Shown here in pieces: positions 17,129 to 34,679 of a DNA stretch of 64,000 nucleotides. The stretch is taken from NCBI RefSeq assembly GCF_000968135.1, contig NZ_FO538765.1:3546001-3610000 (forward strand), read 5' to 3'. Position numbers and translations under genes: made by a program. A model generated the notes under the pieces. That model had not been told where the DNA came from and searched no databases. It saw only the letters and a list, made by a program, of their open reading frames with translations. How positions within the stretch are numbered: the stretch's first letter is position 1; each line of letters opens with the position of its first letter. The stretch comes from Magnetospira sp. QH-2. Lineage in GTDB: Bacteria > Pseudomonadota > Alphaproteobacteria > Rhodospirillales > Magnetospiraceae.

Positions 17129-17626
17129 TTACACCCCGCCGGAGTGCACGACCTCGTAGTACAGCACTTCCAGCTCGTTCTTGTGCTTGGTCTCTTCGTT
17201 GGCCAGGTACTGGAACAAGTCGTGGATGGGGCCTGGGCCAGTCTCCTCGGCCAGGGCAGTGTACTGCTCCATGGCCGCCTGCTCGCGCATCAGGGCGAAT
17301 TGCAGCACTTCCTGATCATCGGGTTTGTCACCAAGGTCCGGCAGGTGGACACAATCGGAGAACTTGCGGTCCGAAGCCGGGCGCTTGACCTCTTCTTGCA
17401 ACACCGCCTGAACATCCGGGCGCGCCTTAAGCCCGGTGAACAGATCGAAATGCTTCTGTTCCTCGGCTGCCAATTCCTCGGCCAGGTAGCGCAGGTTCTT
17501 GCTGACCTTGGGGGCCAATTCGGCGTAGAAATCCCGAGCCGTGCGCTCGAACTCGATGGCCACGGACAGGATCTCTTCCATGGAGGAAAGTGGCTTCAGT
17601 TGGTCGTAGCCGTGTTCCTGAGTCAT
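17129..17626 (-). CDS. Ferritin-like/rubrerythrin-type diiron protein
   Basis: The 165-residue protein is a four-helix ferritin-like domain with the two-half rubrerythrin pattern: E25, then E56-x-x-H59, then E115/E120, then E145-x-x-H148, the expected carboxylate and histidine ligands of a diiron site. The C-terminal rubredoxin domain of true rubrerythrin is absent. Its ATG overlaps the stop of the ferredoxin-GltD gene (ATGA), making it the last gene of the complex operon. Peroxide or oxygen protection of the iron-sulfur complex is a plausible role, by analogy; electron transfer to it from the flavoprotein is possible but not shown. Confidence 0.8.
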   Translation of the reverse strand: MTQEHGYDQLKPLSSMEEILSVAIEFERTARDFYAELAPKVSKNLRYLAEELAAEEQKHFDLFTGLKARPDVQAVLQEEVKRPASDRKFSDCVHLPDLGDKPDDQEVLQFALMREQAAMEQYTALAEETGPGPIHDLFQYLANEETKHKNELEVLYYEVVHSGGV

Positions 17627-19425
17627 TTCTTGGCATCCTGTTGCTTGAAGACGGCATCGATGGCGGTGGCGAGACGATGACCATCGGCGACCGCGTGGAT
17701 CACGTCGGGACCATTGACGCAGTCCCCCCCGGCCCAGAGCCAATCCACCGAGGTGCGGCCATCGCCATCCACCTTGATGCGGCCCCGGTTCCATTCCAAC
17801 TGCTCGGTCAATTCCTCGCCCAGCAGGGAAACGTCGGACATCTGGCCGATGGCCTCGATGACCATGTCGCCCTCGTGGATGACCTCATCGGTTTCATCAT
17901 AGCTGGGAGCGAAACGGCCCTGCTCGTCGAAGATGGAGACGACTCTCCAGGTCTTCAGACCCTTTACCTTGCCCTTGGCGTCGGTGATGATCTCCTGCGG
18001 GCCTCGGGCATCGAGGATAGTGATGCTTTCCTCGGAGCTCTCCTTGACCTCGTCCGGGTCGGCCAGGAAGTGGTCGAAATCTTCCAGCGCGGTAACGGTC
18101 ATGGCCACGTCGCCATACTTTTCCTTTTGCTTGCGGGCCAGACTGCGGGCGATATCCATGGCCACGTTGCCGCCGCCGATGACCACCGCCTTCTTGGGCA
18201 CGGTGATCTTTTCACCGTTGGTGATTTGCCGCAGCAGATCCACGGCCTTTTCCACGCCCTTGTTGTCGGAACCCGGGATGCGGGTCGAGCGCCCCAGATG
18301 CAGGCCGATGCTCAGGATCACCGCGTGGAAGTCCTTTTGCAGGTCGGCCATGGTGACATCGGTGCCGATACGCTTGTTGTATTGGATCTCCACGCCCATG
18401 CCGGTGATCACCGCGACCTCGCGATCGATGGCGTCATAGGGCAACCGGTATTCTGGAATGCCATAGCGGGTCATGCCGCCCGGCTTGTCCTGGGCTTCGA
18501 ACACGGTGACCTGATGCCCCATGCGGCGCAGGTCGTAGGCAGCGGTCAGGCCGGCGGGACCAGCGCCGATGACCGCCACCTTGTGACGGGTCTTGCGGGC
18601 CGGCTTGCCGATGATTTTGCCATACTTGTTGTTGGGCACCTGATCGATGATATGGCGCTTGAGCCAACGGATGGCGATGGGCTCGCCTTCGTGGTTGGCG
18701 GCACAAACGGTCTCGCACTTGTGGGTACAGACGCGACCACAGACCTCGGAGAACGGATTGGTCTCGTAGAGCAGCTTCAGGCCCAATTCGTAATTGCCAT
18801 CGCGCACCGCGCCGATGTAATCGGGGATCGACATATGGGCCGGACAGGTAGCGACACAAAGGCCGCATGAAACGCAGCGGTCGGCTTCGGCCTGGGCCTG
18901 TTCGACGGAGTAGCCATCGACGATTTCGTCGAAATTGGCGATGCGGGCGTCCGGTTCCATCTCGCCCATATGCACCCGGTCATGGGGCACCAGGCTATGG
19001 CCGTCGGGACGGTGATAGCCCAGTTCGGCGTTGTCCCAGCTTTTCTTGTCGATGCCGGGGGTAAAGCGGAAGGCATCACCGTCGCTGTCGGTCCAGGTGT
19101 ATTCGTTGGACATGGACAAGGAGCCGGTCATGCAGACGTCGACGCACAGCGCGCACCAGCAGCAGCGGCCATAGTCAATGCGGGGCCGCAATCCGGAATC
19201 CTCGCCCCCCGTCACCATGCCCTCGCCGGGCACCATGTCGATGGCGGCATTCTGGCAAATGGCCTCGCAGGTTCCGCACCCGATACAGGTCTTCATGTCG
19301 TTCTTGTGGAAGCCGCGATAGCGGGCCGCACCCGGCCGATCATTCAGCGGATCCTTGATGGTCACCGGATCCCGAAACAGGTGTTTCCAGGCGGTGAACG
19401 GGGATATGACGTCGCGTACACTCAT
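17623..19425 (-). CDS. Two-cluster ferredoxin fused to GltD-like NAD(P)H oxidoreductase
   Basis: The 600-residue protein starts with a NuoI-like ferredoxin region: CxxCxxCxxxC at 47-57 and CCxCxxCxxxC at 88-98, for two [4Fe-4S] clusters. A GltD/NfnB-type module follows, with its own cysteine groups at 184-194 and 229-241, an FAD Rossmann motif (GAGPAGL, about 287) and an NAD(P)H Rossmann motif (GGGNVAMD). It lies three bases downstream of the NuoD-like gene and overlaps the ferritin-like gene. The operon has no separate NuoI and no NuoEFG, so this protein probably supplies both the ferredoxin wire and the pyridine-nucleotide flavin. True glutamate synthase small subunit is unlikely because no gltB is present and the extra ferredoxin domain is unusual for it. 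Confidence 0.82.
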   Translation of the reverse strand: MSVRDVISPFTAWKHLFRDPVTIKDPLNDRPGAARYRGFHKNDMKTCIGCGTCEAICQNAAIDMVPGEGMVTGGEDSGLRPRIDYGRCCWCALCVDVCMTGSLSMSNEYTWTDSDGDAFRFTPGIDKKSWDNAELGYHRPDGHSLVPHDRVHMGEMEPDARIANFDEIVDGYSVEQAQAEADRCVSCGLCVATCPAHMSIPDYIGAVRDGNYELGLKLLYETNPFSEVCGRVCTHKCETVCAANHEGEPIAIRWLKRHIIDQVPNNKYGKIIGKPARKTRHKVAVIGAGPAGLTAAYDLRRMGHQVTVFEAQDKPGGMTRYGIPEYRLPYDAIDREVAVITGMGVEIQYNKRIGTDVTMADLQKDFHAVILSIGLHLGRSTRIPGSDNKGVEKAVDLLRQITNGEKITVPKKAVVIGGGNVAMDIARSLARKQKEKYGDVAMTVTALEDFDHFLADPDEVKESSEESITILDARGPQEIITDAKGKVKGLKTWRVVSIFDEQGRFAPSYDETDEVIHEGDMVIEAIGQMSDVSLLGEELTEQLEWNRGRIKVDGDGRTSVDWLWAGGDCVNGPDVIHAVADGHRLATAIDAVFKQQDAKK

Positions 19426-19427
19426 GG

Positions 19428-20606
19428 CTATCTCTCGATCTCCGGCGGATAGGTATGCAAGGACACCATCAGTCCCGCCACATCCGAAATATTGAGGTTG
19501 ACGATCATCCGCTCCAGCAACGCCATGGCGTGGGTATAGGAGGGACCCCGGACATTGACCCGGCGCGGGTAGCCGCTGCCGTCGGTGACCAGGTAGAACC
19601 CGTACTCACCGCGCGAGCATTCGCCCTTGATATAGGTCTCGCCGCGCGGAATGTTCCAGTGCAGCACGTTGGGCAGCTTGGACATGGTCGGGCCAGTGCG
19701 CGGCATCCGGCCCAGGATCTGCCGGATCAGGTCGATGGAAACCAGAACGTCGCGGCGACGCACGTCGGCCCGGGTGAAGATATCGGAATCCGTGCCGCTG
19801 ACCGGCTCGAAATTCAGCATGGGATAGACCAGATAGGGCGCATCCTTGCGCAGGTCCTTGACCACTCCGGCGGCGCGGGCATTGGGGCCGGTGATGCCGT
19901 AGCTGTCGATCAGCGCCGGGTCAATATAGCCGACGCCCACCGAGCGTTTTTTGAACACGGCGTTGTGGAACATCACGTCATGGACGTCCTTCATGGTCCG
20001 TTCGATTTCCTTGAGGGTCTCGGCCATGCGCTGATCGAAACCCTCGGGCAAGGTGTCGCGCACGCCGCCCGGCAGGATGAACATGTGATAGATGCGCGCA
20101 CCGGTCAGTTCCTCGAAGCGATCGAGCATCAGATCACGGGCATAGGTGGTCCATTGGCCGATGACGCCCAGGCCGAAGGCTCCGGCCTGCCCACCGAGAT
20201 ACATCATATAGCTATTGATCCGACCCATTTCGAGGATCAGGGTGCGGATCCAATGGGCCTGTTCCGGCACCTCGATCCCGGCCAGTTCCTCCACTGCGGC
20301 GGCATAGCAGTACTCGTTGAAGTCCGGCTCCGGCACGCAGATGCGGCAGACGATGGGAAAGCATTGGATAAAGGTGCGGCGCTCCATGAGCTTCTCGAAG
20401 CCCCGGTGCAGGTAGCCCACATGGGTGCGACCCTCGACCACCTCATCGCCGCAGACCGTCAGTTCCACCGACATGTTGCCGGTGATGCCCGGATGGTTCG
20501 GACCCTGCCAAAGCTTCAGGTACTTGCCCGAGGTCAGGTCGATGTCGCAGGTCCCGTCGGCTTTTTTCTCCGGGTATTGGCTGCGATCTGGCGTAAACTG
20601 CAACAT
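19428..20606 (-). CDS. NuoD/NiFe-hydrogenase large-subunit-like protein without a full metal site
   Basis: The 392-residue protein has the NuoD/HycE-like core (GPNHPG at 36-41, YLHRGFEKLMERR near 65-77, EMGRINSYMMYLGGQA). The N-terminal hydrogenase ligand motif RICxxC is present only in part: R88-I-C90-V-P-E93, where the second cysteine is glutamate, with C82 and C87 just before it. The C-terminal DPCxxC is absent; the protein ends ...YPPEIER. It therefore cannot hold a NiFe centre as hydrogenases do, nor is it a normal complex I NuoD. This intermediate state fits the MbsL/MbxL type. It would sit beside the NuoB-like subunit in the peripheral arm. Confidence 0.82.
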   Translation of the reverse strand: MLQFTPDRSQYPEKKADGTCDIDLTSGKYLKLWQGPNHPGITGNMSVELTVCGDEVVEGRTHVGYLHRGFEKLMERRTFIQCFPIVCRICVPEPDFNEYCYAAAVEELAGIEVPEQAHWIRTLILEMGRINSYMMYLGGQAGAFGLGVIGQWTTYARDLMLDRFEELTGARIYHMFILPGGVRDTLPEGFDQRMAETLKEIERTMKDVHDVMFHNAVFKKRSVGVGYIDPALIDSYGITGPNARAAGVVKDLRKDAPYLVYPMLNFEPVSGTDSDIFTRADVRRRDVLVSIDLIRQILGRMPRTGPTMSKLPNVLHWNIPRGETYIKGECSRGEYGFYLVTDGSGYPRRVNVRGPSYTHAMALLERMIVNLNISDVAGLMVSLHTYPPEIER

Positions 20607-20607
20607 A

Positions 20608-21144
20608 TCAATCCCCGTCCGGATAGAGTTTCTGTTTCATGTACTGCGCCGGGTCGTGGGTCTCGCGGCCCTCCCGGTGGACGAACTTCTCTTCGGAATA
20701 CTTCAAGGTATCGAAGTCCCGGCGGTAAGGCGGGATACCGGTCCAGCCTTCGAGGATGAATTCCTCGTCGACTCGGGGGCTGCCCGGGAAGTCGATGCCG
20801 AACATCTCGCGCAGTTCCCGCTGATAGGTGGCGGCAGTGGGCCAGATATCATGGATGCCATCCATGGAAGCCTTGTCGCGCGGGATCATCAGCCGTACGC
20901 CCAACTCGCGGGCGGCCAACCGATTGCACAGGAGATAGGTCAATTGGAACTGATCTTCTTCAAGCCAATCCACCGCCGTCAGCAGCACCAGATGAGTGAA
21001 GCCTTCCACGTCGCGCAGTTGCAGCAGCAAGGCCCGCAGATGCTCGCGGTCCACGGTGACGAAGGCCAGATCCTCGCGCTGCTCGGTCAGCGGGCCGAGG
21101 GCGAAGGGCTGTTTGAGTCTCTTATACAGGTCGCGCATGTTCAT
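20608..21144 (-). CDS. NuoC-like (30-kDa) subunit
   Basis: The 178-residue protein has the complex I 30-kDa signature late in the chain: W..A..YQRELREMFGIDFPGSPR...EGW....YRRDF. NuoC/MbhK subunits carry no cofactor and brace the catalytic pair. The gene sits between the NuoB- and NuoD-like genes with gaps of six and one bases, the usual B-C-D order. Confidence 0.88.
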   Translation of the reverse strand: MNMRDLYKRLKQPFALGPLTEQREDLAFVTVDREHLRALLLQLRDVEGFTHLVLLTAVDWLEEDQFQLTYLLCNRLAARELGVRLMIPRDKASMDGIHDIWPTAATYQRELREMFGIDFPGSPRVDEEFILEGWTGIPPYRRDFDTLKYSEEKFVHREGRETHDPAQYMKQKLYPDGD

Positions 21145-21150
21145 TGGTCG

Positions 21151-21792
21151 TCACCAGTTGTAATCGGGCATGTCCCAATCGTCGATCACCGACTTCTGAT
21201 TGGCCTTGTACCATTCGAAGCGCTCGGCATATTCGTTGGCGCCCTCAGCCTTGCCGGCCCGAATGATTTTTTTCAGATCCTCGAATCCAGCCAGCAGCGC
21301 CTCGGGGCGCGGCATGCAGCCGACGATGTACAGATCCACCGGCAGATACTCGTCGAGCTTCTTGATGGTGTTATAGGAATCCCAGTACATGCCGCCGTTG
21401 ATGGTGCAGGAGCCCAACCCGACCACGTACTTGGGGCTCTGCATCTGCTCATAGGAGCGGATGGCCCGCTTCAGGGTCTTGGTGGAGAGGTATCCCGAGA
21501 TCATCAGCAGGTTGGCCTGCCTGGGCGTCGGGCGCCACTGCACGCCGAAGCGATAGGCATCGAAGCGCGGTGTCATCAACGGGCGCATCTCGATGGCCCC
21601 GCAACCGGTGCCGAAGCCGAGAATCCACAGAGATTCGGACCGGGCCCAGTTGAAGAAGTCCTCGACAATCTTCACATAGACCGGCGGATGGACCTTGGGC
21701 GGCGCCTCGCAATAGTGATCGCGCAGCGGATCGATCTCGATGTCTTGACCGTCCGGAGTCCTGACGATGCGTTTTTGAAGTTCTTCTTTCAT
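21151..21792 (-). CDS. NuoB-like iron-sulfur subunit with three proximal-cluster cysteines
   Basis: The 213-residue protein has the NuoB fold marks GSCTINGGMY (C129) and VGCMPRPEALL (C159). The N-terminal ligand motif, CCAxE in NuoB and CxxC-like in hydrogenases, reads GTGC64-G65-AIEM, so the tandem cysteine is reduced to one. I checked the codons (tgc ggg) at the nucleotide level. With C64, C129 and C159 the cluster would have only three cysteine ligands, leaving one iron open or held by another group. A site-differentiated proximal cluster of this kind is the proposed catalytic centre of the Pyrococcus MBS complex. Confidence 0.85.
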   Translation of the reverse strand: MKEELQKRIVRTPDGQDIEIDPLRDHYCEAPPKVHPPVYVKIVEDFFNWARSESLWILGFGTGCGAIEMRPLMTPRFDAYRFGVQWRPTPRQANLLMISGYLSTKTLKRAIRSYEQMQSPKYVVGLGSCTINGGMYWDSYNTIKKLDEYLPVDLYIVGCMPRPEALLAGFEDLKKIIRAGKAEGANEYAERFEWYKANQKSVIDDWDMPDYNW

Positions 21793-21798
21793 ATCACC

Positions 21799-22704
21799 TC
21801 ACACCACCAGAATGGCTGCGACGCCGATGGGAACGGCCCAGATCAGGAACCAGCGGATGGATTGTTCGACTCTAAAGCGTGGGAACACCACGCCAACGAA
21901 GGCGGCAAACAGATAGATCAGGAACGCCTTAACAAAGAAGATCGGCCAATTGTCCGCCCCGCCGAAGAACAGGTTCATATAGATCACGATCTTGGCGATG
22001 GGGAAAATCACCCGGTTGGTCTGCATCAGCGCCAAGTAGGATGAATGGTATTCCGTCGGCGGGCCGATGGGGATTTCCTGTGGGGCCAGCACCACGTCGA
22101 ACGGCGGCCGCATCATGGAGCCCAAGAAGCCCAGCATGCCTGCTGCCACCGCCAGCGGATTGGTGAACAGGGTCCAACTCATCAGGCCCCCTTGCTGAGC
22201 GGCAACGATCTCGGTTACCGACAGGGTCTGATATTGCAGGGCCACCGCGAACACCGCCAGGGCAAAGGGAAGCTCTGCCGTGGTCACTTGCGACAAGCCC
22301 CGGGTCACACCGATGGCAGCATGGGGATGGCCGCTTTCGCCCGCGCCCAAGGCCATGCCCAGGGAACCGAAGAAAACGAAATACAGGGCCAGGATCAGGT
22401 CTCCGGCAAAGGAGAAATTGGCGAACATCACCGAGCCGTAGATGGTCGGCACGAACAACAACAGGCCCACACCGCCCGACAGCCGGAACACCGGGCCCAG
22501 GTAATACATGACACCATGGGTGATATGCGAGCGCAGGGCATAGTTCTTCAGCAGGTCGAAGTAATTCTGATAGATGGGAATGCCATAGCGCCGACCGGCC
22601 CGGGCACCGATTTTTTGAATCAGCGCGGTCATCAGCAGGCCATAGTTGACGACAATGAAGATCGTCAGCAAGGCATAGGGGATTTGGATCCACTCGAAGT
22701 TCAT
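21799..22704 (-). CDS. NuoH-like membrane subunit (MbhM type)
   Basis: The 301-residue protein has about eight membrane helices and the conserved cytoplasmic loops of NuoH, including RRYGIPIYQNYFDLLKN near residue 38 and an E/G-rich PFDVVLAPQEIPIGP segment near 200. This subunit links the iron-sulfur arm to the pump modules. It lies between the double-pump gene and the NuoB-like gene with gaps of two and six bases. The position (before B, C, D) differs from Pyrococcus mbh, where the H-like gene follows the L-like gene. Confidence 0.87.
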   Translation of the reverse strand: MNFEWIQIPYALLTIFIVVNYGLLMTALIQKIGARAGRRYGIPIYQNYFDLLKNYALRSHITHGVMYYLGPVFRLSGGVGLLLFVPTIYGSVMFANFSFAGDLILALYFVFFGSLGMALGAGESGHPHAAIGVTRGLSQVTTAELPFALAVFAVALQYQTLSVTEIVAAQQGGLMSWTLFTNPLAVAAGMLGFLGSMMRPPFDVVLAPQEIPIGPPTEYHSSYLALMQTNRVIFPIAKIVIYMNLFFGGADNWPIFFVKAFLIYLFAAFVGVVFPRFRVEQSIRWFLIWAVPIGVAAILVV

Positions 22705-22706
22705 GG

Positions 22707-25700
22707 CTAGGCCCCCATCATAATCAGATAGACGATGACGACAAATCCCAACAGCTGGAAGGCATAGATCTGTCCGTCACCGGTATAGAGACGCCGGGTG
22801 ATGTCAGCGACACCATGCAGCAAGTCGGTCACCGCAGCCCAGAATGTCTCGAAGTATGGCACCGCCAGGATGCCAAGAGCCTTGCGGTAGGGCGCGAAGA
22901 AATTCCAGGCAAAATGGGTGGTCTCCGGTCGATAGGGCCGCTCCGCCGCATAGACGATGTTGAACTGCTTTACCTTCTGGGCGTTGTGGTTCAGCGCCAG
23001 CATGACCAAGAACAACGTGGCGAAGATCACACCGGTGACGACCATGATCGAGACCGGACTCCAATAGCCGTATTGACTGGTAATGGTCAGCCCCTCCCAT
23101 CCCAGGGAGCCATTGGGGAAGAACTGGGAAATGTAGGCATCCACCTTTTTCAGTGCCAGACCCGGGAACAACGCAAAGCCCATGAGGAAGGCCACATAAA
23201 GCATCTGCGGCAGGATGAACCAGAACGGCGCTTCCTTGACCGTGCGCAACTCGTCCTTCAACTGGCCCAGGAAGATGGTATGGATCAGCCGGAACAGATA
23301 CAGGAAGGCGATGGGGCCGGACAGGAATAAGATGATAATCGGCAGCCGCGCATCGGAGTCCAAAATGGCGTTGTAGAAGATCCACCGGCCACCGAAGCCC
23401 GAAAGCGGCGGCACGCCGGACACGGCGATGATGCCGATCAAAACAGCGATAAAGGACAGCGGCATCATGGTAATCAAACCGCCCATCAGATACATCTGCC
23501 GGGTGCCGGTGCGCTTGGCCACGCCACCCACCGAAAGGAACAGCATGGACTTGTAGACATAGTGGTTGATGATGAACATCAAAGCCATCAGCCAGCCCAG
23601 GTGGTTCATCATCGCCAGACCGAACACGGCATAGCCCATCTGACCGATGGAGGAATAGGCCAGCAACCGTTTGGCGTCTTCCTGGAAGGCCGCCATGATG
23701 TTACCCACCAGCGCCGACAAGGCACCAATCCACAGCATCACATAGGTTAGTTCGACCCCGTACAGCTGCGTCTTGCCCATGGTCATCAAAAGCATCATCA
23801 AACCGAACAGTCCGGCTTTCAGCAAAATACCCGAAACCATCGGCGAGACATCGGTCTCGGCCTCGGCATGGGCGCCGGGCAGCCAAATATGCAGGCCCAA
23901 CGACGCGGTCTTGGTCATGAAGCCGATGGCCAATAAGACGAATACCCAAGGCGCCCAGTCAGCGCTGACATGGGCCAGGGATTGCAGAGCGAACGGGGTT
24001 TGGCCCTGGGCCGCGATGGCGAACCCGGCCAACAGCACGAAGGCCCCCCCCATGGAAAAGATGATATAGGACAGGGCATGGGGCTCGGATTGCTTGCCCC
24101 GCAGGATCAGGAAGTACGACCCGATGGTCAGGGCTTCCCAGGCGGCGAAGAAGTTGAACGAGTCCTCGGCCACCACCAGCATGGCCAGACCGGAATACAT
24201 CAGCATGGCCGACGGATAGAATCCCATGCGCTGGCCCTTGAATTCATAACTGGCCAGGAAGATCACCGCGCCGCCAATGAGGATGATAACCGCATAGATC
24301 AGTTGCAGCGGTGAATAGGTGTCGTAGCTGAAATAAAAGAAGACGGACATGCCGACGATGGCGATGCTGTTCTTGATCCAGGACGGCAGCGGCTCCAGAA
24401 GCAAAAAGGCGATGGCAAACAGCAGCGGGATCATTTGCAGCAGGTTGCCGTAGTCAGACAGTTCGCCCCAGATATACCCGGCGCCCCAACCACCCAAGGC
24501 GGCAAGCATGACCACGCCGACCTTGCGCACGGAGAACGGCATGAAGTGTCCCTGCTCTTCGCGCTTGATGACGTATCCGAACCAGCGATAAAGGTAACCG
24601 GTTTCCACCAGCGCCCCAAACAGCACCAGGGCAATCACGGTCAAACGCCCGTTCTCGGCCAGGATATGCATTAGCTCCCACTTGGCGTAGAAGCCGGGGA
24701 ACGGCGGCAGGCCGATGAGCATGGCGAGGAAACTGGCAAAGGCAAAGATCAGCAGCGGATTCTTGCGCAGCACGGTCCAAGCCATCAACTCGCGCTCCTG
24801 GATCAGACCGGAAATCCAATACAGTCCCGCCTTGGCCACCGCATGGGCAACCAGAATGCCGCCGGCAATATACAAGTAGTCCTCGCCCAGGATGTCGCGC
24901 TGGCCGATGACCACCAGGATCAGGCCGATCTGACCGACCGAAGAATAGCCCAACAGGCGCCGATCGTTGGTCTGCGACAGGCCCATGATATTGGAGGCCA
25001 CGAAGGTAAACAGGCCGATGCCGGTGGCAACCGGCAGCCAGGTCTCTCCGCCGATGAGGAGGATTTTGTCCGCCGCAAACAGTGCCGCGGCGCCTGTCGC
25101 GGCGGAGAACACCGCCGAAATGGCCGGATGGGCGGATTCATAGATATCCAGCGCCCACCCGTTGGCCGGGAACGGCTTCAGTTCGGCGACCACCGCCATG
25201 AACATCAAGAAGAAGGCCACCGAGCCACCGCCCACCAATACGGTTTTGGAGGCCGCCAGGTCGTCGATATTGAGGCTGCCACCAGCGTGATACAGGAAGA
25301 TGATACCGATCAGCATCAACACCGAAATCACTTGCGAGACGATCAAATACTTGAACCCGGCTCCCAGCGCGTGGCGGTCATAGGACAACAGGATCAAACC
25401 ACCGGTGGAGATCACCACCAATTCGAAGAACACGAACAGATTGAAGATATCGCGAGTCAGAATAATGCCGCACAGGGCCATGATGGCGATGAGGTACACC
25501 GCCATCGCCCGGCGTTTCAGACGGTTCAGTGTATCTTTAAGGAACAGCGCCGAGGCCAGACCGGTCAAGGTGACCAACAACAACAGCGCCGCTTCCGCCA
25601 TGCCCATCCTCAGATTGATGGCAAAGGGCGGCGGGCTGCCCGCGGTATGAATATCCACCGGCGCGATGCCCTCGAAGGCAAAGGCCCAGACCCATTGACC

Positions 25701-25832
25701 GGCGATCCAGGCCATGACGGCCAGGGCGGCAAGGGTCAGCAGGTAGGCTTGGGCCCGCCAGGTATCCTTGAGGAATCCGAGCAGGAATGCCGAACCGAGG
25801 CCGACGGCGAGAATATAAATGGCGCTTACCAT
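22707..25832 (-). CDS. Double MrpD/NuoL-type antiporter-like subunit (two pump modules in one chain)
   Basis: The 1041-residue protein is two proton-translocating modules in one continuous frame. Module 1 (about 1-500) has the key acidic residue E137 in LFVFFEL, lysine K219 in AELKPFP and K334. Module 2 (about 520-900) has E566 in FFAAWEAL, K641 in TKTASLGLHIWLPGAH, K672 and the H757/K761 pair. A further hydrophobic tail may include a lateral-helix-like part. In most Mrp and Mbh systems MrpA/MrpD-like proteins are separate genes; archaeal MBS has two such subunits. The start overlaps the MrpC stop by seven bases. Confidence 0.88.
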   Translation of the reverse strand: MVSAIYILAVGLGSAFLLGFLKDTWRAQAYLLTLAALAVMAWIAGQWVWAFAFEGIAPVDIHTAGSPPPFAINLRMGMAEAALLLLVTLTGLASALFLKDTLNRLKRRAMAVYLIAIMALCGIILTRDIFNLFVFFELVVISTGGLILLSYDRHALGAGFKYLIVSQVISVLMLIGIIFLYHAGGSLNIDDLAASKTVLVGGGSVAFFLMFMAVVAELKPFPANGWALDIYESAHPAISAVFSAATGAAALFAADKILLIGGETWLPVATGIGLFTFVASNIMGLSQTNDRRLLGYSSVGQIGLILVVIGQRDILGEDYLYIAGGILVAHAVAKAGLYWISGLIQERELMAWTVLRKNPLLIFAFASFLAMLIGLPPFPGFYAKWELMHILAENGRLTVIALVLFGALVETGYLYRWFGYVIKREEQGHFMPFSVRKVGVVMLAALGGWGAGYIWGELSDYGNLLQMIPLLFAIAFLLLEPLPSWIKNSIAIVGMSVFFYFSYDTYSPLQLIYAVIILIGGAVIFLASYEFKGQRMGFYPSAMLMYSGLAMLVVAEDSFNFFAAWEALTIGSYFLILRGKQSEPHALSYIIFSMGGAFVLLAGFAIAAQGQTPFALQSLAHVSADWAPWVFVLLAIGFMTKTASLGLHIWLPGAHAEAETDVSPMVSGILLKAGLFGLMMLLMTMGKTQLYGVELTYVMLWIGALSALVGNIMAAFQEDAKRLLAYSSIGQMGYAVFGLAMMNHLGWLMALMFIINHYVYKSMLFLSVGGVAKRTGTRQMYLMGGLITMMPLSFIAVLIGIIAVSGVPPLSGFGGRWIFYNAILDSDARLPIIILFLSGPIAFLYLFRLIHTIFLGQLKDELRTVKEAPFWFILPQMLYVAFLMGFALFPGLALKKVDAYISQFFPNGSLGWEGLTITSQYGYWSPVSIMVVTGVIFATLFLVMLALNHNAQKVKQFNIVYAAERPYRPETTHFAWNFFAPYRKALGILAVPYFETFWAAVTDLLHGVADITRRLYTGDGQIYAFQLLGFVVIVYLIMMGA

Positions 25833-26194
25833 TTCAGCTCCGTGAATTTGGAGATATCGAGGGTCCGTTTGGTCTCGAACAGCTTATGGGCATAGGCGAG
25901 CATCAGCGCGGTGACGCCGAGGCCGATAACGATGGCGGTGAGCACCAGGGCCTGTGGCACCGGGTCGATGATCCGCTCGACGGCTTCGGCCAGCGGAACG
26001 GCGTCATCGAGAATGGGTGCCGTGCGCCCGGTCATGTATCCGACCGCCACCAGCACCAGGTTGACGCCCGTGTTGGCCACGGTGAAGGCAACGATCATGC
26101 GCAGGATATTGCGGTTGGTCAGAGCCCCGTGGAGCCCGATCAGGATCAACAAGAAGCCTGTCGCCATGGCAATGATTTCAATGTCAGGCATCAC
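25826..26194 (-). CDS. mrpC: MrpC/NuoK-like subunit
   Basis: The 122-residue protein has three membrane helices and the NuoK/MrpC layout: FLLILIGLHGALTNRNILRM in the first half and a long polar loop before the third helix. It overlaps both neighbours by a few bases, which points to tight translational coupling. It would join MrpD-type pumps to the MrpG/F side of the membrane arm. Confidence 0.88.
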   Translation of the reverse strand: MMPDIEIIAMATGFLLILIGLHGALTNRNILRMIVAFTVANTGVNLVLVAVGYMTGRTAPILDDAVPLAEAVERIIDPVPQALVLTAIVIGLGVTALMLAYAHKLFETKRTLDISKFTELKW

Positions 26195-26904
26195 TTGTCC
26201 TCCGTTTCGGCGAAGCTCACCATCATGGAACTGAACTCGGCGCCGACCTTCAGACCAATCAGCGAATAGATCAGTGGAATGGCGCCGGCGGAGAACAAGC
26301 TGCCAAAGGTACCCAGGGGCAGGATCCGGTTATCCAGGAAGCCACCGGCCAAGAACAGACCGAGGATGCCGATGGTCACATAGAGGAATCCGGACCCCGA
26401 TTCGATGCGCGCGATCAGCGCATGGCTGAAGCGGCGGAACGGATGGGTGAGCAGCATCAAGAGAATGCCCGAGGCGACAATGGCCCCGCCTTGGAAACCA
26501 CCGCCCGGGGTCAGGTGGCCGTTCACAAACACATAAATACCGAACAAGATGATCAGCGGCACCAGCAGACGGCAGCCGGTGAGCAGTAATTCACCCGACG
26601 GCAGCAGGTTGGAAATCAAACCGATCACTGGAACCTGGCCCGGCAGGCGCTCTTTTCTAAGCACCAGCGCCACGGTGGCGGCGGTCAGGAACAAAACGGT
26701 CACTTCGCCCAGGGTGTCCAGGCCGCGATAGGTGACAATGATCGCCGTGACGATATTCTGCGCTCCGGTATCCGACGCCGTGTTTTCGGCGTAATAGCGC
26801 GCTGTCAGATTCAGGGCCTCGTCGGGGGTGTAGCCCAGCATCAAGGTGGTAAAGGCCGTGGCAAGACCGAGAAGCACCATGAAAGCGATCACATTCTTAA
26901 TCAT
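26191..26904 (-). CDS. MbhE-MrpB fusion membrane subunit
   Basis: The 237-residue protein has two parts. The first (about 1-90) carries the MbhE-like VTYRGLDTLGEVTVLFLTA segment. The second (about 105-230) is MrpB-like, with RLLVPLIILFGIYVFVNGHLTPGGGFQGG and six or so helices in total. In Bacillus-type Mrp these pieces are the end of MrpA and all of MrpB; in Mbh they are separate genes E and F. The fusion is in frame with no sign of error. It overlaps MrpC by four bases and the upstream gene by eight. Confidence 0.85.
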   Translation of the reverse strand: MIKNVIAFMVLLGLATAFTTLMLGYTPDEALNLTARYYAENTASDTGAQNIVTAIIVTYRGLDTLGEVTVLFLTAATVALVLRKERLPGQVPVIGLISNLLPSGELLLTGCRLLVPLIILFGIYVFVNGHLTPGGGFQGGAIVASGILLMLLTHPFRRFSHALIARIESGSGFLYVTIGILGLFLAGGFLDNRILPLGTFGSLFSAGAIPLIYSLIGLKVGAEFSSMMVSFAETEDK

Positions 26905-27154
26905 TGCGTCCGCCTCTCACCCGTCCGAGGACGAAGAAGAACAAGAAGGTGGTCAGGCCGCTGCCGATGGCCGCTTCTGTCATGGCCACGTCCGGCGCCG
27001 CCAGCAGCAGAAACTGCACCGAGGCAAACAGGCTTACCGCTCCGGCGGCCAGGATCGAGATCGGCAGGCTCCGTTTCCCCGACACTGCCAGAGTCGCGCC
27101 GACCAGCATCGCGGCCGTCAGCAACAGGCTCATGATTAAAGGGAGAAGACTCAT
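26897..27154 (-). CDS. MbhD-type (DUF4040) membrane subunit
   Basis: The 85-residue protein has two to three helices and the DUF4040/MbhD signature ASVQFLLLAAPDVAMTEAAIGSGL, here broken into its halves ASVQFLLLAAPDVAM and TEAAIGSGL. In Mrp antiporters this segment is part of the MrpA C-terminus; as a separate gene it is typical of Mbh/MBS systems. Overlaps with neighbours on both sides place it firmly in the operon. Confidence 0.85.
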   Translation of the reverse strand: MSLLPLIMSLLLTAAMLVGATLAVSGKRSLPISILAAGAVSLFASVQFLLLAAPDVAMTEAAIGSGLTTFLFFFVLGRVRGGRND

Positions 27155-27489
27155 GATTTTTCTCCAAGGTCTTCGGCCAGACGATCCACTTGGGTCTCCT
27201 GGGCGGGCTTGATGCCGCTCCGATGGGCGGCGCGCGCCAGAACCTGCGAAGACAGCGGGTTGGTGAACATCAAGAACAAACCGATCAACAACAGCTTGAA
27301 AGCCCAGTCCGGCTGCATCAAACCCGCACCGAGCAAGGTCAGCATGGTGCCCAAGGTCGTGGCCTTGGTTCCGGCCTGAATGCGGTTGAAAATATCAGGC
27401 ATGCGGGTCAGACCGAGACCACCAAGAAGCAGGAACGTGGTTCCGGCCACCAAAACGATGCCACCGGCAATATCGAGCGAGGACTCCAT
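27151..27489 (-). CDS. mrpG: MrpG subunit
   Basis: The 112-residue protein has three helices and the MrpG signature GGLGLTRMPDIFNRIQAGTKATTLG at residues about 23-47 (GLTRMPDIFNRIQA shown as the key part). MrpE, F and G form a group at the sodium-translocating end of the membrane arm. It overlaps the MbhD-type gene by four bases and touches MrpF by one base. Confidence 0.9.
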   Translation of the reverse strand: MESSLDIAGGIVLVAGTTFLLLGGLGLTRMPDIFNRIQAGTKATTLGTMLTLLGAGLMQPDWAFKLLLIGLFLMFTNPLSSQVLARAAHRSGIKPAQETQVDRLAEDLGEKS

Positions 27490-27752
27490 CAGTCGGTTCC
27501 CCTTTCCAGATAGCGGGCGACGACGATCACGCCCAGGAAGGACAACAAGGCATAGACCAGCGCCACATCCAGGTAGACCACCCTCTGCTCCAACAGCGCC
27601 AGCAGCACGATGCCGGTGATGGCAACAATGGTCAGCACATCAAAGGCAATAACCCGATCAACGGCCACGGGGCCCCGGATAAAGCGCAGCAACGCCAGCA
27701 GAAAGGCCGTACCGGCCAGACCCGCCGCCACAAGGATCAGGATCTCAACCAT
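27489..27752 (-). CDS. mrpF: MrpF subunit
   Basis: The 87-residue protein has three helices with the MrpF marks FIRGPVAVDRVIAFDVL near 24-40 and a conserved YLDVALVYALLSFLG helix. It overlaps MrpE by eight bases and abuts MrpG (one-base overlap), so E, F and G are translated as a block. Confidence 0.9.
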   Translation of the reverse strand: MVEILILVAAGLAGTAFLLALLRFIRGPVAVDRVIAFDVLTIVAITGIVLLALLEQRVVYLDVALVYALLSFLGVIVVARYLERGTD

Positions 27753-28257
27753 ACATGACCTCCAGATAGCGCTCGAACCCGGCTACGATTGTCTCGGTCG
27801 CCTGGTCCACATCCGCCGTTTCCATGCTCACCCAGTGCACGTACAGCCACTCGTCTTGCAATTCCACGGTCAAAGTGCCGGGGGTCAGGGTGATGGCATT
27901 GGCCAGCAGAAGCCGACCCATGCGGCTTTGCAGCTTGGTGCGCACCTTCACGATGCCCGGGTTCACGGGCAGGCTCGGCGACAATACGATAAACGCCAGG
28001 CGGAAATTGGATTTAACCAGTTCCTTCAAAAAATAAAGGATGAAAAGCAAAGTGGCGGGAATGGCCGCTGGAACCAGTCGGTAATCCGACAAAAAAGAAA
28101 GGCCGTTACGGAAAAAAACGGTAATGACAAAGGCCGCCACCAGCCCGATCAGTAATGTGTCCGATTCCAAATTACCGTTCAGCAAAATCCAGAATAAAAT
28201 TAGAGTCAAAAACAGCTCGGCCGAGTAGATGAAACGGCTTGGAACGTTTGTGTCCAT
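27745..28257 (-). CDS. mrpE: MrpE subunit, first gene of the operon
   Basis: The 170-residue protein has two or three N-terminal helices and a soluble C-terminal domain with ANAITLTPGTLTVEL and LYVHW, typical of MrpE. In known Mrp and MBH/MBS structures E, F and G surround the sodium/proton path. It is the first of 13 same-strand genes ending with the ferritin-like gene at 17129; all junctions after it are overlaps or gaps of at most six bases. The presumed promoter is in 28258-28738. Confidence 0.9.
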   Translation of the reverse strand: MDTNVPSRFIYSAELFLTLILFWILLNGNLESDTLLIGLVAAFVITVFFRNGLSFLSDYRLVPAAIPATLLFILYFLKELVKSNFRLAFIVLSPSLPVNPGIVKVRTKLQSRMGRLLLANAITLTPGTLTVELQDEWLYVHWVSMETADVDQATETIVAGFERYLEVMYG

Positions 28258-28999: not shown

Positions 29000-30031
29000 T
29001 TAGATGGCGGTCTCCTCCTTGCGGTACTGGAAGTCCGTGCCGTCGATCCACATGCGATGCATGATTACGGCGAGACGCCGGGCAACGGCGACCTTGGCGC
29101 GTTTCATCCCGCGCCTTTTGGCGACCGCGAGCCCCCAGTGTTTGAGCCAGGACCAACGGCGGGTTCGAGTGAGAAGTGCATTGGCGGCCTCGAACAAAAG
29201 CCAACGAACCATGGCATCTCCGCACTTGCTGATGGGGCCGCTTCGGTCCTGCTCTCCCGAGGCGTATCTGCGTGGGACAAGCCCGAAGTGGGCGCCGACC
29301 ATGACCGACTTTTGAAACCGTTCCGGCACGTCGAGTCCTGTCCTGAAAGCGAGGGCGGTAACCGGGCCGACGCCGGGAACGGTCATCAGGCGCCGGCAAA
29401 CGCTATCATCGCGCGCAGCGGCATGAACCTGCCGGTCGAGCTTGTCGAGTTGTTCGAGCAAGGCTTGGCGCGCAAGCAAGAGCGGCTCGGCGGCTGCGCT
29501 GAGGTGCGGGTTATCAGCCGTCAATTCCCGAACCCGCGCCGCGAAAAGGCGTCCGCGCGCCATACCGACCTTGAGGCCGAAAGCTTTCAATGTTCCTCGT
29601 ACCGTATTGGACAACTGACGGACCTGATGAACCAGGGTCTCCCGATGGGTCAGCACCATCCGGAGCTCCTGACTGCGCGCGGTCTTGACGTGGGTCGCGC
29701 GGTACAAACCGGTCCGCATCGCCTGGCTGATCAAGCGGGCGTCGCGACGGTCCGTCTTGACTGGGCTGGCGCTGGCAAAGGCCTTCATTTGCCGGGTCTC
29801 GATACAAATCACAGGGAGGCCCCGACTGGACAGTCCTGCGTACAGCCAAGGCGCCAGAGGGCCAGCTTCCAACCCAATTCGCGCAAAGCCACGCCCGCTT
29901 TCCTCGAGCCAAGTGGCGACCGCCTCGGGTGTGCTTGACACCTTGCCTTCGCGAATGACGGTTCCCTTTGCATCAATCTCACAGATCGAAATGCTTGCCA
30001 TCGATACGTCCATTCCAACAAAATACTCCAT
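29000..30031 (-). CDS. IS110-family transposase (DEDD), copy 1
   Basis: The 343-residue enzyme has the N-terminal RuvC-like DEDD domain (MEYFVGMDVS at the start, GLEAGPLAPWL near 50, KTDRRDARLI near 95) and the C-terminal Tnp20 domain (VPGVGPVTALAFRT...GLVPRRYASGEQ). The start at 30031 follows GAGGAG; an upstream in-frame extension lacks a ribosome site. IS110 recombinases work with a structured bridge RNA from the element's non-coding part, pairing with donor and target. The frame is intact, so the element may be active. Confidence 0.92.
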   Translation of the reverse strand: MEYFVGMDVSMASISICEIDAKGTVIREGKVSSTPEAVATWLEESGRGFARIGLEAGPLAPWLYAGLSSRGLPVICIETRQMKAFASASPVKTDRRDARLISQAMRTGLYRATHVKTARSQELRMVLTHRETLVHQVRQLSNTVRGTLKAFGLKVGMARGRLFAARVRELTADNPHLSAAAEPLLLARQALLEQLDKLDRQVHAAARDDSVCRRLMTVPGVGPVTALAFRTGLDVPERFQKSVMVGAHFGLVPRRYASGEQDRSGPISKCGDAMVRWLLFEAANALLTRTRRWSWLKHWGLAVAKRRGMKRAKVAVARRLAVIMHRMWIDGTDFQYRKEETAI

Positions 30032-30309
30032 AGCTGGTCTCCTCTGTTCCATGTCCAGGAATTGACCCGGATACTTGATCAAGACCGAGTGTGGAGACCA
30101 GCTGACTGTTTAGGCAATCCCTGACTGCTCGATTACCGCCATCTGAAAAAGTCCGATTTCGAGCCTGTGCCAACACATGCCTCGACAAGCTCAGCATGAG
30201 GGCCTTTGAATTCTCAACAGGTTAGCCTCATCCTGAGCTTCCTCATCCCGAGCTTGTCGAGGGACGAAGGGCGAGGCGGGCCGTAGGACAACACTTTTTC
30301 AGCAGCCTG

Positions 30310-31424: not shown

Positions 31425-33314
31425 TTACTCGGCGGCGTCGGCGGCAGGCTCTTCGACGTCGACCAAGTGATACAAGGGTGCCTTCTCCATGGTGTATTCA
31501 CCGGTCTTCGGATCACGACGGGACACAGTCAGAACGTGCCAATTCTCGTCATCCAGCTTCAGGGCGTCACCACGGTAGTAGTAGCCCGGCCAGCGGGTTT
31601 CCTTGCGGAACAACGTGTGCTGCATAACACACTCCGAGGTCCGGTGACGATGCTTGACTTCCCAAGCACGCAGCAGTTCGTGAGTGTCCTTGGCCGCAAT
31701 CTTCTCGAGATCTTCTTCCATGATCTTGAGCTTCTTGAGACCGATGCTCAGCAGCTTGTCGTTGGTCATGTAGTTGACCGTCACGCCGCCGCAGTATTCG
31801 TCCATCAGCTTTTGCAGACGGTCGAGAGACTGACGCGGGTTGTGGTAGTTCGGGTTGACCTCGCCAGCCACGATATCGTTCCGGTGGACCTTGTAGTGTT
31901 CCATCGGCCGGAAGACTTCTTCCTTCAGCTTGGCGATGGTTCCCTCGGATACGCGGATGCCTTCGGCCTTGCCATCGTCGATATACTTGCAAGCATTCTT
32001 GGCGGCAATACGGCCTTCGGTGAACGAACCGGAGGAGAACGCGTGCGGCGTACCGCCGACCGCGTCACCGGCACCAAACAGGCCTTCGACGGTCATCATG
32101 CGGTTGTAGCCCCACTGATACTCGGGCGGGGAAACATCCGACGGCCCGGAGCACCAGGCGCCGCAACCGGTGGCATGGGAACCCATGACATACGGCTCGG
32201 AGGTGGTCAGTTCCGGGTTTTCGTTCTTCGGATCCACATCGGTGGCGGCCCACAGAACGGCCTGACCAACGGTCATGCCGAGGAAGTTGTGCCAACCGAT
32301 TTCTTCCAGATGCGGATCTTGGAACGAGTGCATGGTGATCATATGGATCGGTCCGCGGCCCGCATTCACCTCATTGATGATCGCGTGGTTACGCAGGCAG
32401 GTCGGGATCGGACGGTGCGTACGGTGAGAAACCTCCGGATCCAGGTATTCCTTGCCAACCATTTCCTGGAGGGCGGGGAACCACTTGGATTCGTACTCTT
32501 CGCCATAAGCGTTCTGGGTGTAGGCCTTCAAGTGCAGGAAGTAGGCGCCAACCGGGCCGTAACCATCCTTGAAGCGGGCCAGAACGATCCGGTTTTCCAT
32601 CTGGGTCATCTTGGCGCCTGCGTTGATCATCAACGCATAAGCGGAACCGGACGACCACGGGGCGTACCAAACACGACCGGCACCCTCACCGACGGAACGC
32701 GGCTTGAACAGGTTGGACGCGCCACCCGCACCGCAAACCACGGTCTTGGATTTGAACACATGGAAGTCACCCGTGCGAACGTTGAAGCCAACAGCACCGG
32801 CAACGCGGTTTTCCTTGGCTTCATCCATCACCAGATGGGTGATGCAGACACGGTTATAGACCTTGTCGGCCGACTTTTTCGCGGCTTCGGCCACGATCGG
32901 CTTATAGGATTCACCGTGGATCATGATCTGCCAACGGCCTTCACGCAGGAACGAACCCTTTTCCAGGTCGCGCATCAGCGGCAGGCCCCACTCTTCGAAT
33001 TGGTGGACAGCGGAGTCAACATGGCGAGCCATGTCGAACAGCAGATCTTCACGCACCATGCCCATCAAGTCGATACGGGCGTAACGCACGTGATCTTCCG
33101 GGTTGTTTTCACCCCAACGGGTGCCCATGTAGCAGTTGATGGCGTACAGACCCTGAGCCACGGCACCGGAGCGATCGATGTTGGCCTTTTCGGCAACGAC
33201 GATCTTCTTGTTTTTACCCCAGTAGCGGGCTTCGAAAGCGGCACCCGTGCCGCCAAGGCCGGCACCAGCGACGAGAATGTCGATGTTGTCTTCGACGATT
33301 GTTTTGTAAGCCAT
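31425..33314 (-). CDS. aprA: Adenylylsulfate reductase alpha subunit
   Basis: The 629-residue flavoprotein has the N-terminal FAD motif DILVAGAGLGGTGAAFEA (about 11-28), the AprA-specific NCYMGTRWGEN segment and an intact C-terminus, the normal length for AprA. It interconverts sulfite plus AMP and adenylylsulfate. In sulfur oxidisers it runs in the oxidative direction and passes electrons through AprB to the membrane. Its ATG overlaps the aprB stop by one base. Partner AprM rather than QmoABC suggests the sulfur-oxidising lineage. Cytoplasmic face of the membrane. Confidence 0.95.
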   Translation of the reverse strand: MAYKTIVEDNIDILVAGAGLGGTGAAFEARYWGKNKKIVVAEKANIDRSGAVAQGLYAINCYMGTRWGENNPEDHVRYARIDLMGMVREDLLFDMARHVDSAVHQFEEWGLPLMRDLEKGSFLREGRWQIMIHGESYKPIVAEAAKKSADKVYNRVCITHLVMDEAKENRVAGAVGFNVRTGDFHVFKSKTVVCGAGGASNLFKPRSVGEGAGRVWYAPWSSGSAYALMINAGAKMTQMENRIVLARFKDGYGPVGAYFLHLKAYTQNAYGEEYESKWFPALQEMVGKEYLDPEVSHRTHRPIPTCLRNHAIINEVNAGRGPIHMITMHSFQDPHLEEIGWHNFLGMTVGQAVLWAATDVDPKNENPELTTSEPYVMGSHATGCGAWCSGPSDVSPPEYQWGYNRMMTVEGLFGAGDAVGGTPHAFSSGSFTEGRIAAKNACKYIDDGKAEGIRVSEGTIAKLKEEVFRPMEHYKVHRNDIVAGEVNPNYHNPRQSLDRLQKLMDEYCGGVTVNYMTNDKLLSIGLKKLKIMEEDLEKIAAKDTHELLRAWEVKHRHRTSECVMQHTLFRKETRWPGYYYRGDALKLDDENWHVLTVSRRDPKTGEYTMEKAPLYHLVDVEEPAADAAE

Positions 33315-33796
33315 TAGTAGTACACCCCTTCCTTCATCACGAGGCCGTTGGATTCCAGGGTATGCAAGTCGCCGTCATCCATGCGGATGTACTTCGGCTC
33401 GTTGTACAGCAGCTGACTATCGCGCTGTTCCTTGGACGGCTCGGGCGCATTCTTCAGCTGAGGAATGCAAGTCCCCCATGGCTTGGTGGTGATCGGAGCC
33501 AGCAGGTTGAGGTCTTTCTTGCCGTTGCGGAATTTGATCCGCCAGGCAATGACACCTTTTTCCTCGTCCCGCACAGCGCGAACGCTGTGACCGAGCGGCG
33601 CAAAGTCCGCATAGCCGCGCACGTCGATGGCGTTTTGCGGGCAAGCCTTCACACAGGAATAGCATTCCCAGCACATGTTCGGCTCGATGTTATAGGCACG
33701 ACGATAGGTCTTATCGATGTGCATGATGTCGGACGGGCAGATATCAACGCAGTGACCGCAGCCGTCGCATCGTGTCATATAGACAAAGGTAGGCAT
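33314..33796 (-). CDS. aprB: Adenylylsulfate reductase beta subunit
   Basis: The 160-residue protein is the ferredoxin-like beta subunit, with CxxCxxCxxxC motifs for two [4Fe-4S] clusters (RCDGCGHCVDICP near 9-21 and MCWECYSCVKACP near 41-53) and the long C-terminal tail that wraps AprA. It relays electrons between the AprA FAD and the membrane partner. It sits between aprM (43-base gap) and aprA (one-base overlap). Confidence 0.95.
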   Translation of the reverse strand: MPTFVYMTRCDGCGHCVDICPSDIMHIDKTYRRAYNIEPNMCWECYSCVKACPQNAIDVRGYADFAPLGHSVRAVRDEEKGVIAWRIKFRNGKKDLNLLAPITTKPWGTCIPQLKNAPEPSKEQRDSQLLYNEPKYIRMDDGDLHTLESNGLVMKEGVYY

Positions 33797-33839: not shown

Positions 33840-34679
33840 CTAGTAGTGCTTAGGCTGCTCGCGCTTGATGCCGAGACCCATGTACGACGGCTTGGCGCCC
33901 ATGTATTCCGGGATATCGGGAAAACGCTTCTGCAAGGCAGGATCGCTCAGATCACCCAGCTCGGGCAGGTTCTCCATGGAACCATCGGCCTTGATGACAC
34001 GCTTGTTGAAAGCAGCCGCGGGCTTGAAGAACATATGAGCGAACTTCGACCACAACACGCCAGCAAACAAAACCGTCGCGGAGATGACAAACAGACCCAG
34101 GAACAGGGTGTTCCAAGGGGCAGAGCCCATGGTCAGGGACCAGACCAGACCGAAGGTGGTGGTGCCCAACAGCGACAGAATGAACATGTCGGCCTTGGCG
34201 ATACGGTACCAGGGGTTGCCTTCCGCGGAGACATCAACGCGGATGAAGAACCAGAACCAGTAGCCGCCGAACATCACCATGGCGCAGCCGAGATGCCAAA
34301 GCATGGAGACGATGGCCGGAGCCTCGGGAGTCGGAAACGCGAACACCAAGGCAACGGTCGTCAAGACGAACAGGATGAAGCCGTACATGGTGAACAGGTG
34401 CGAGATCCGACGCTTCGGATTGCAGAATTCGCCAGAGGTCGCCACATCGACAACCGCCGTATTAATGGCGATACCGATTTTGTCCCCGCCGCTCAGCTCA
34501 CGGGTACGTGAGGCTTCGGCGGCCTTGGCTTTGGCGAAAAAGTACTTGGCGCTTTTTTTGTGGATCATGTCAAAAATGGTGCCGCCAACGACCAGAATGA
34601 ACATCAAAATGACATACCCCTGGATAACGTCGAGCGGGACGATCGTCGCAAGATCAGCGAATGGATTACTGGCGAACAT
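33840..34679 (-). CDS. aprM: AprM, membrane partner of adenylylsulfate reductase
   Basis: The 279-residue protein has about six membrane helices and a C-terminal cytoplasmic tail (KPAAAFNKRVIKADG...IPEYMGAKPSYMGLG). Its position in front of aprBA and its composition match AprM, the putative quinone-linked anchor that replaces QmoABC in many sulfur oxidisers. GGAGGAATCG precedes the ATG. A sigma-70-like promoter lies about 70 bases upstream. Confidence 0.88.
   Translation of the reverse strand: MFASNPFADLATIVPLDVIQGYVILMFILVVGGTIFDMIHKKSAKYFFAKAKAAEASRTRELSGGDKIGIAINTAVVDVATSGEFCNPKRRISHLFTMYGFILFVLTTVALVFAFPTPEAPAIVSMLWHLGCAMVMFGGYWFWFFIRVDVSAEGNPWYRIAKADMFILSLLGTTTFGLVWSLTMGSAPWNTLFLGLFVISATVLFAGVLWSKFAHMFFKPAAAFNKRVIKADGSMENLPELGDLSDPALQKRFPDIPEYMGAKPSYMGLGIKREQPKHY

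Follow-up and report, generated by a model that had tools for sequence, protein, structure and literature searches.

The window analysed here is a 64,000-nucleotide stretch of the Magnetospira sp. QH-2 genome (contig NZ_FO538765.1, positions 3,546,001 to 3,610,000), and it carries a gap-free operon of 13 genes, all on the minus strand, in the order mrpEFG, DUF4040, MrpB, MrpC, fused antiporters, nuoHBCD, a fusion gene (gene 12) and a rubrerythrin-like gene. Among the 12 genes that run from mrpE (28257) as far as the fusion (17623), neighbours either overlap or are separated by 6 bases at most. The first gene is MrpE-like (27745-28257; MNHE match, E 1e-38) and is followed by MrpF-like (27489-27752), MrpG-like (27151-27489) and DUF4040/MbhD-like (26897-27154) genes, whose positions are conserved in related operons and which are named from position and general knowledge. 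Profile matches identify the next two genes as MbhE+MrpB-like (26191-26904) and MrpC/MbsG-like (25826-26194). Then come a 1041-aa protein in which the MbsH and MbsH' antiporter subunits are fused (22707-25832), a membrane anchor of the NuoH/MbsM type (21799-22704), a NuoB/MbsJ-type subunit (21151-21792), a subunit in the NuoC/MbsK position (20608-21144; assigned from a profile match and its position) and a NuoD/MbsL-type subunit (19428-20606). The fusion gene follows at 17623-19425, and its stop codon is overlapped by the start (ATGA) of a gene for a 165-aa rubrerythrin/ferritin-like protein (17129-17626; PF02915, E 1e-11), likely the last gene of the operon and an accessory subunit. Neither nuoI nor nuoE, nuoF or nuoG is present within this operon.

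Domain structure of the fusion protein

The first-pass annotation had placed a ferredoxin-GltD fusion at this site without stating its strand. The interval is an exact minus-strand ORF of 600 codons plus stop, and domain matches confirm the fusion. NuoI models matched residues 6-113 (19087-19410) with 101 bits and E 5e-29 (Pfam/NCBIfam), and the closest solved NuoI-type relative of this N-terminus is subunit N of the Pyrococcus furiosus MBS complex (6u8y_N, E 7e-23). This agrees with the earlier proposal that an N-terminal two-cluster domain takes the place of NuoI; the ligands of the two [4Fe-4S] clusters would be C47, C50, C53 and C57, and C88, C91, C94 and C98. The remainder comprises the Fer4_20 domain of a GltD/NfnL module (aa 161-266; 18628-18945; C184, C187, C190, C194, C229, C233, C237 and C241) and an FAD/NAD double Rossmann domain (Pyr_redox_2, aa 282-578; 17692-18582), the latter supported by both a Pfam match and the AlphaFold model. 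In a sequence search of solved structures the closest relatives of the C-terminal module were Nfn/Stn-type, NfnL and GltD chains, and Foldseek with the AlphaFold model of the fusion returned NfnL, NfnABC/StnABC and GltD chains, so that the folds agree with the sequence matches; the model is reliable in the GltD part only, pLDDT being <50 at residues 1-196. Alignment of seven fusion orthologues revealed 17 invariant cysteines, which leaves room for four [4Fe-4S] clusters. From the profile matches, the cysteine alignment and the AlphaFold model we propose that the protein is the NAD(H) site and the point of electron entry or exit of the complex. The sole full-length family match is the 'putative oxidoreductase' NF010590/PRK13984 (fusion residues 2-596 on model positions 7-609; 893 bits vs a curated cut-off of 946). 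Full-length orthologues with 46-72% identity to the window copy occur in six other genomes, which excludes chance or an annotation artefact as the source of the fusion.

The flavoproteins DsrL, NfnL and GltD have the same Fer4_20 plus double Rossmann module. Unlike them, the fusion has an N-terminal NuoI-like domain and lacks the DsrL-type C-terminal ferredoxin domain, and neither GltB nor NfnS is encoded in the operon. Identity with DsrL was discarded for want of that ferredoxin domain, the genome's own DsrL-like protein being encoded elsewhere. Another GltD-like flavoprotein of the same genome (L013:5484-7184, 567 aa) does have a C-terminal ferredoxin domain and a DsrL-like layout. The similarity of the GltD module could also mean that the protein is the small subunit of glutamate synthase, or some other soluble oxidoreductase that merely neighbours Mrp-Nuo genes, but we consider this highly improbable. 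The GltB of this genome has its own adjoining GltD elsewhere, so that the function with a GltB considered in the first-pass annotation does not hold and the GltD assignment was dropped; the MbsN-like domain, the tight operon packing and the invariable place of the fusion after NuoD also speak against a soluble enzyme.

An MBS/MBX-type complex

Family placement was examined by comparing NuoD, NuoB, NuoH, the fused antiporters and the NuoI part with all solved structures. NuoD scored 301 bits against 6u8y and 205 against the best complex I, NuoB 218 vs 136 bits, and NuoH 137 bits against 6u8y_M vs 50 for the next chain; for the two halves of the 1041-aa protein 6u8y was again the best solved match. 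Every redox and membrane subunit compared is thus nearest to 6u8y, and by sequence the complex is of the MBS/MBX type. MBS is distinguished from complex I by the loss of the equivalents of Nqo4 H38 and Y87 and by a proximal [4Fe-4S] cluster with three cysteine ligands only (PMC7684303). Consistent with this, alignment places T and V at the H38 and Y87 positions of the window NuoD; the two residues are likewise missing from the aligned relatives, whereas the genome's own complex I has H and Y. In all seven NuoB rows one cysteine lies in an FGTGCGAIEM-type motif, one in GSCTING and one in GCMPRPEA, and the adjacent CC pair kept by the NuoB of the genome's own complex I is absent. The [NiFe]-binding cysteines are incomplete, only the C85 equivalent being left and even this missing in some copies. 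The three-cysteine NuoB carries the signature of the open-iron, sulfur-reducing cluster of MBS; the cysteine count allows catalysis at an open site and does not prove it.

These residues bear on whether the complex is an alternative NADH:quinone oxidoreductase, that is, a compact complex I with the fusion standing in for NuoI and NuoEFG and with quinone as the final electron acceptor. The two do have a homologous core (NuoB, C, D, H and an I-like subunit), from which a hydrophobic chamber would be expected, and quinone is available as an acceptor in a respiring organism. The window operon differs from complex I in lacking NuoEFG, the quinone residues and the CC pair and in having an Mrp-type arm instead. 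The loss of H38 and Y87 together with the three-cysteine NuoB makes the canonical quinone reading unlikely, the subunits compared are all nearer to MBS, and the genome already encodes a full complex I in a separate nuo operon (NuoB, D, E, F, G, H and I plus antiporter subunits). We therefore give quinone reduction only a small chance, and identity with complex I itself was dropped on the missing NuoEFG, the absent quinone residues and the scores. The separate nuoI, named in the first-pass annotation as a potential partner of this complex, sits in that complete canonical operon with nuoEFG, so this objection does not hold. What did not survive is the idea that the fusion replaces NuoEFG: the subunits are MBS/MBX-like and lack the quinone residues, and MBS, the template, has no NuoEFG that could have been lost, which indicates that a complex of the ferredoxin-dependent type gained a flavoprotein.

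Cofactor preference

NfnB binds the phosphate of NADP through a YRR motif, and NAD-type DsrL-1 proteins have at this position S/T, then L/V/N/R/G/A/I, then F/E/H/Q/Y/S/V/A (PMC7596348). Alignments place A446-L447-E448 of the window fusion here (18082-18090, minus strand). The same ALE is found in five close relatives, with CLE in L038, SLE in L051 and YRR in G748. By the DsrL-derived rule, extrapolated to the fusion family, the window fusion is predicted to use NAD(H), and the same extrapolation suggests that the G748 fusion represents an NADP(H) version of the complex. The FAD and pyridine-nucleotide sites of the GltD/NfnB module recognised earlier are retained, and the general NAD(P)H specificity given to it is narrowed, since ALE predicts NAD(H).

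Relatives and distribution

Each of the eight loci, counting that of the window, has the fusion immediately after NuoD, as the first-pass annotation had anticipated in asking for the same fusion next to Mrp-NuoBCDH operons in other genomes. Five other genomes (L014, L034-L037), which include a named gammaproteobacterial MAG, have the gene order of the window and fusions of 68-72% identity. In G748 (L049) a NuoH-B-C-D-fusion-Rbr segment reaches the end of the contig, with the fusion at L049:6083-7858. A more distant full-length fusion (43% identity) is encoded at L051; the genome belongs to the same phylum as L015, a record titled Deltaproteobacteria. In the L051 operon the antiporters are two separate genes (489 and 616 aa), no Rbr adjoins the fusion, NuoD likewise lacks H38, and the NuoB motif FSTACGVIEV is consistent with a three-cysteine cluster. 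A genome of the same taxonomic order as the window (L038) has a divergent, apparently frame-shifted copy. At L038:12481-15740 the GltD part lies in another frame than the N-terminal NuoI part, and a stop codon interrupts the NuoD match; these broken frames reflect either a draft error or a decaying copy.

A rubrerythrin-like gene follows the fusion in L014 and L034-L037, and its counterpart in L049 is weakly similar. In L038 the rubrerythrin-like part and the GltD part share one continuous reading frame, which supports the rubrerythrin-like protein belonging to the complex. It may shield the open cluster against oxygen or peroxide.

Of the 398 genomes of the phylum, six have an MBS-type NuoD, and exactly these six also encode the fusion. 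All six fusion carriers have a dsrA above the curated cut-off, as opposed to 52 of the 398 genomes overall (hypergeometric P ~4e-6, shared ancestry ignored). In the NuoD tree the window copy groups with copies from other classes, apart from the copy of its own taxonomic order. This placement, which has moderate support, suggests that the window-type NuoD was acquired by horizontal transfer.

A proposed NAD(H)- and sulfur-linked mechanism

The observations on which we build are the genes present, the family placement of the subunits, their residue signatures, the strict linkage and the co-occurrence with dsrA. The explanation we favour, and hold to be somewhat better than even, is an NAD(H)-linked MBS/MBX-type complex that would exchange electrons between NADH and sulfane sulfur and couple this to ion transport. 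MbsN, the ferredoxin-docking subunit, would have become fused to an NfnL/GltD-type Fe-S flavoprotein, and electrons would pass from NAD(H) to FAD, the two Fer4_20 clusters, the two NuoI-like clusters, the open-iron cluster of NuoB and finally sulfane sulfur. At the NuoB cluster polysulfide or a protein-bound per- or trisulfide would be reduced or, in reverse, sulfide or persulfide oxidised. The redox step would drive H+/Na+ movement through the NuoH/NuoD loops and the MbsH/H'-Mrp arm, as in MBS. NAD preference, electron path, substrate, direction and ion coupling are all features that we infer.

Two directions are conceivable in a sulfur-oxidising bacterium such as this one, namely NADH-driven reduction of stored sulfur in anoxia and the ion-motive-force-driven reduction of NAD+ by reduced sulfur during autotrophic growth. 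The potentials of NAD+/NADH (about -320 mV) and S0/HS- (about -270 mV) lie close together, so that the reaction would be nearly reversible and NADH-driven sulfur reduction would yield little energy for ion pumping, which in turn speaks for the reverse direction or for a different acceptor. With the ion gradient loaded, the reaction would tend toward NAD+ reduction, and in a dark or anoxic state rich in NADH and stored sulfur it would be pushed toward sulfur reduction. Rather speculatively, and with the odds clearly against it, the complex may run mainly backward: the ion motive force would move electrons from sulfide or persulfide straight to NAD+, giving autotrophic sulfur oxidisers a cheap reverse electron transport that needs no quinone, and in anoxia the same machine could use NADH to respire stored sulfur.

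A different acceptor is offered by the original MBX idea, an NAD(H):ferredoxin oxidoreductase in which ferredoxin binds at the NuoI-like part and NAD at the GltD part, and ion flux makes low-potential ferredoxin, for example for carbon fixation by the rTCA cycle. NfnL modules elsewhere hand electrons to ferredoxin, and in Endoriftia, the Riftia symbiont, the Mrp-Mbx genes neighbour the rTCA cycle in co-expression (PMC11636981). However, a path from flavin through the NuoI-like clusters to ferredoxin skips NuoB/D and the coupling loops and leaves the open proximal cluster without a role; we judge this reading improbable.

It is also possible, though in our estimate a long shot, that the favoured mechanism is right in all but its substrate, which would be DsrC trisulfide, TusA or rhodanese persulfide or another protein-bound sulfane, tying the complex to the rDsr pathway. 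The co-occurrence with dsrA and the dsr cluster in the same genome (dsrA, DsrK and a DsrL-like protein) point this way, as does the reduction of an organic trisulfide by MBS; on the other side, the site in MBS has been portrayed as a hydrophobic pocket that takes small polysulfides (PMC7684303), and the Mrp-Nuo operon is not adjacent to the dsr genes.

Comparison with known systems

MBS was described from hyperthermophiles that live by fermentation, as a sulfur reductase supplied with electrons by ferredoxin. The predicted NAD(H)-linked complex resembles P. furiosus MBS (6u8y, PMC7684303) in subunits H, H', J, L, M and N by sequence and in K and the Mrp-like subunits by position, and likewise in the absent quinone residues, three-cysteine proximal cluster and Mrp-type membrane arm. 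It differs in that MbsN is fused to an Fe-S flavoprotein, with NAD(H) expected instead of ferredoxin, in the fusion of H with H', in the extra rubrerythrin-like gene and in its hosts, which are dsr-carrying bacteria.

Of the control genomes, only that of Thermotoga maritima has a full-length NF010590 match above the cut-off. Its fusion gene is presumably TM1217 and, going by the gene order in PMC2246101, may adjoin the mbx genes TM1205-1216. T. maritima also has an MBX operon, described as having 13 subunits; the published model of that operon assumes ferredoxin as the donor.

Among symbionts, a putative Mrp-Mbx complex of the Riftia symbiont has been tied by analogy to S0 reduction (PMC11636981), and in the Solemya symbiont a 'MrpEFGBBCDD' locus, whose order EFG-B-B-C-D-D is that of the Mrp part of the window operon, was read as a plain antiporter (PMC4287430). 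Compared by description and gene order, both are probably of the same locus type as the window; the portions of the two accounts accessible to us do not mention the fusion. The available text of the Ehr-complex paper describes FDH-Ehr and makes no mention of a NuoI-GltD fusion. We found no description of the fusion or its consequence in the searchable literature, which leaves out most subscription journals; MBX-like complexes in vent symbionts and a full-length fusion relative in T. maritima are already known. A pyridine-nucleotide-linked MBS in dsr-carrying proteobacteria would, if true, be a testable candidate for the anoxic reduction of stored sulfur or for making NADH from reduced sulfur while bypassing quinones, and would represent a second way for a complex-I-like machine to acquire an input module for NADH. 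Operons of this kind may pass for simple Mrp antiporters or for another complex I.

Other genes in the window

A few kb from the Mrp-Nuo operon lie aprAB, encoding APS reductase (31425-33796), which adjoin a 279-aa ORF (33840-34679). An IS110 transposase gene (29000-30082) separates aprAB from the operon. Further along, a TPR protein (39130-40854) has weak matches to PrsT of the PEP-CTERM system and to the magnetosome protein MamA, both below cut-off.
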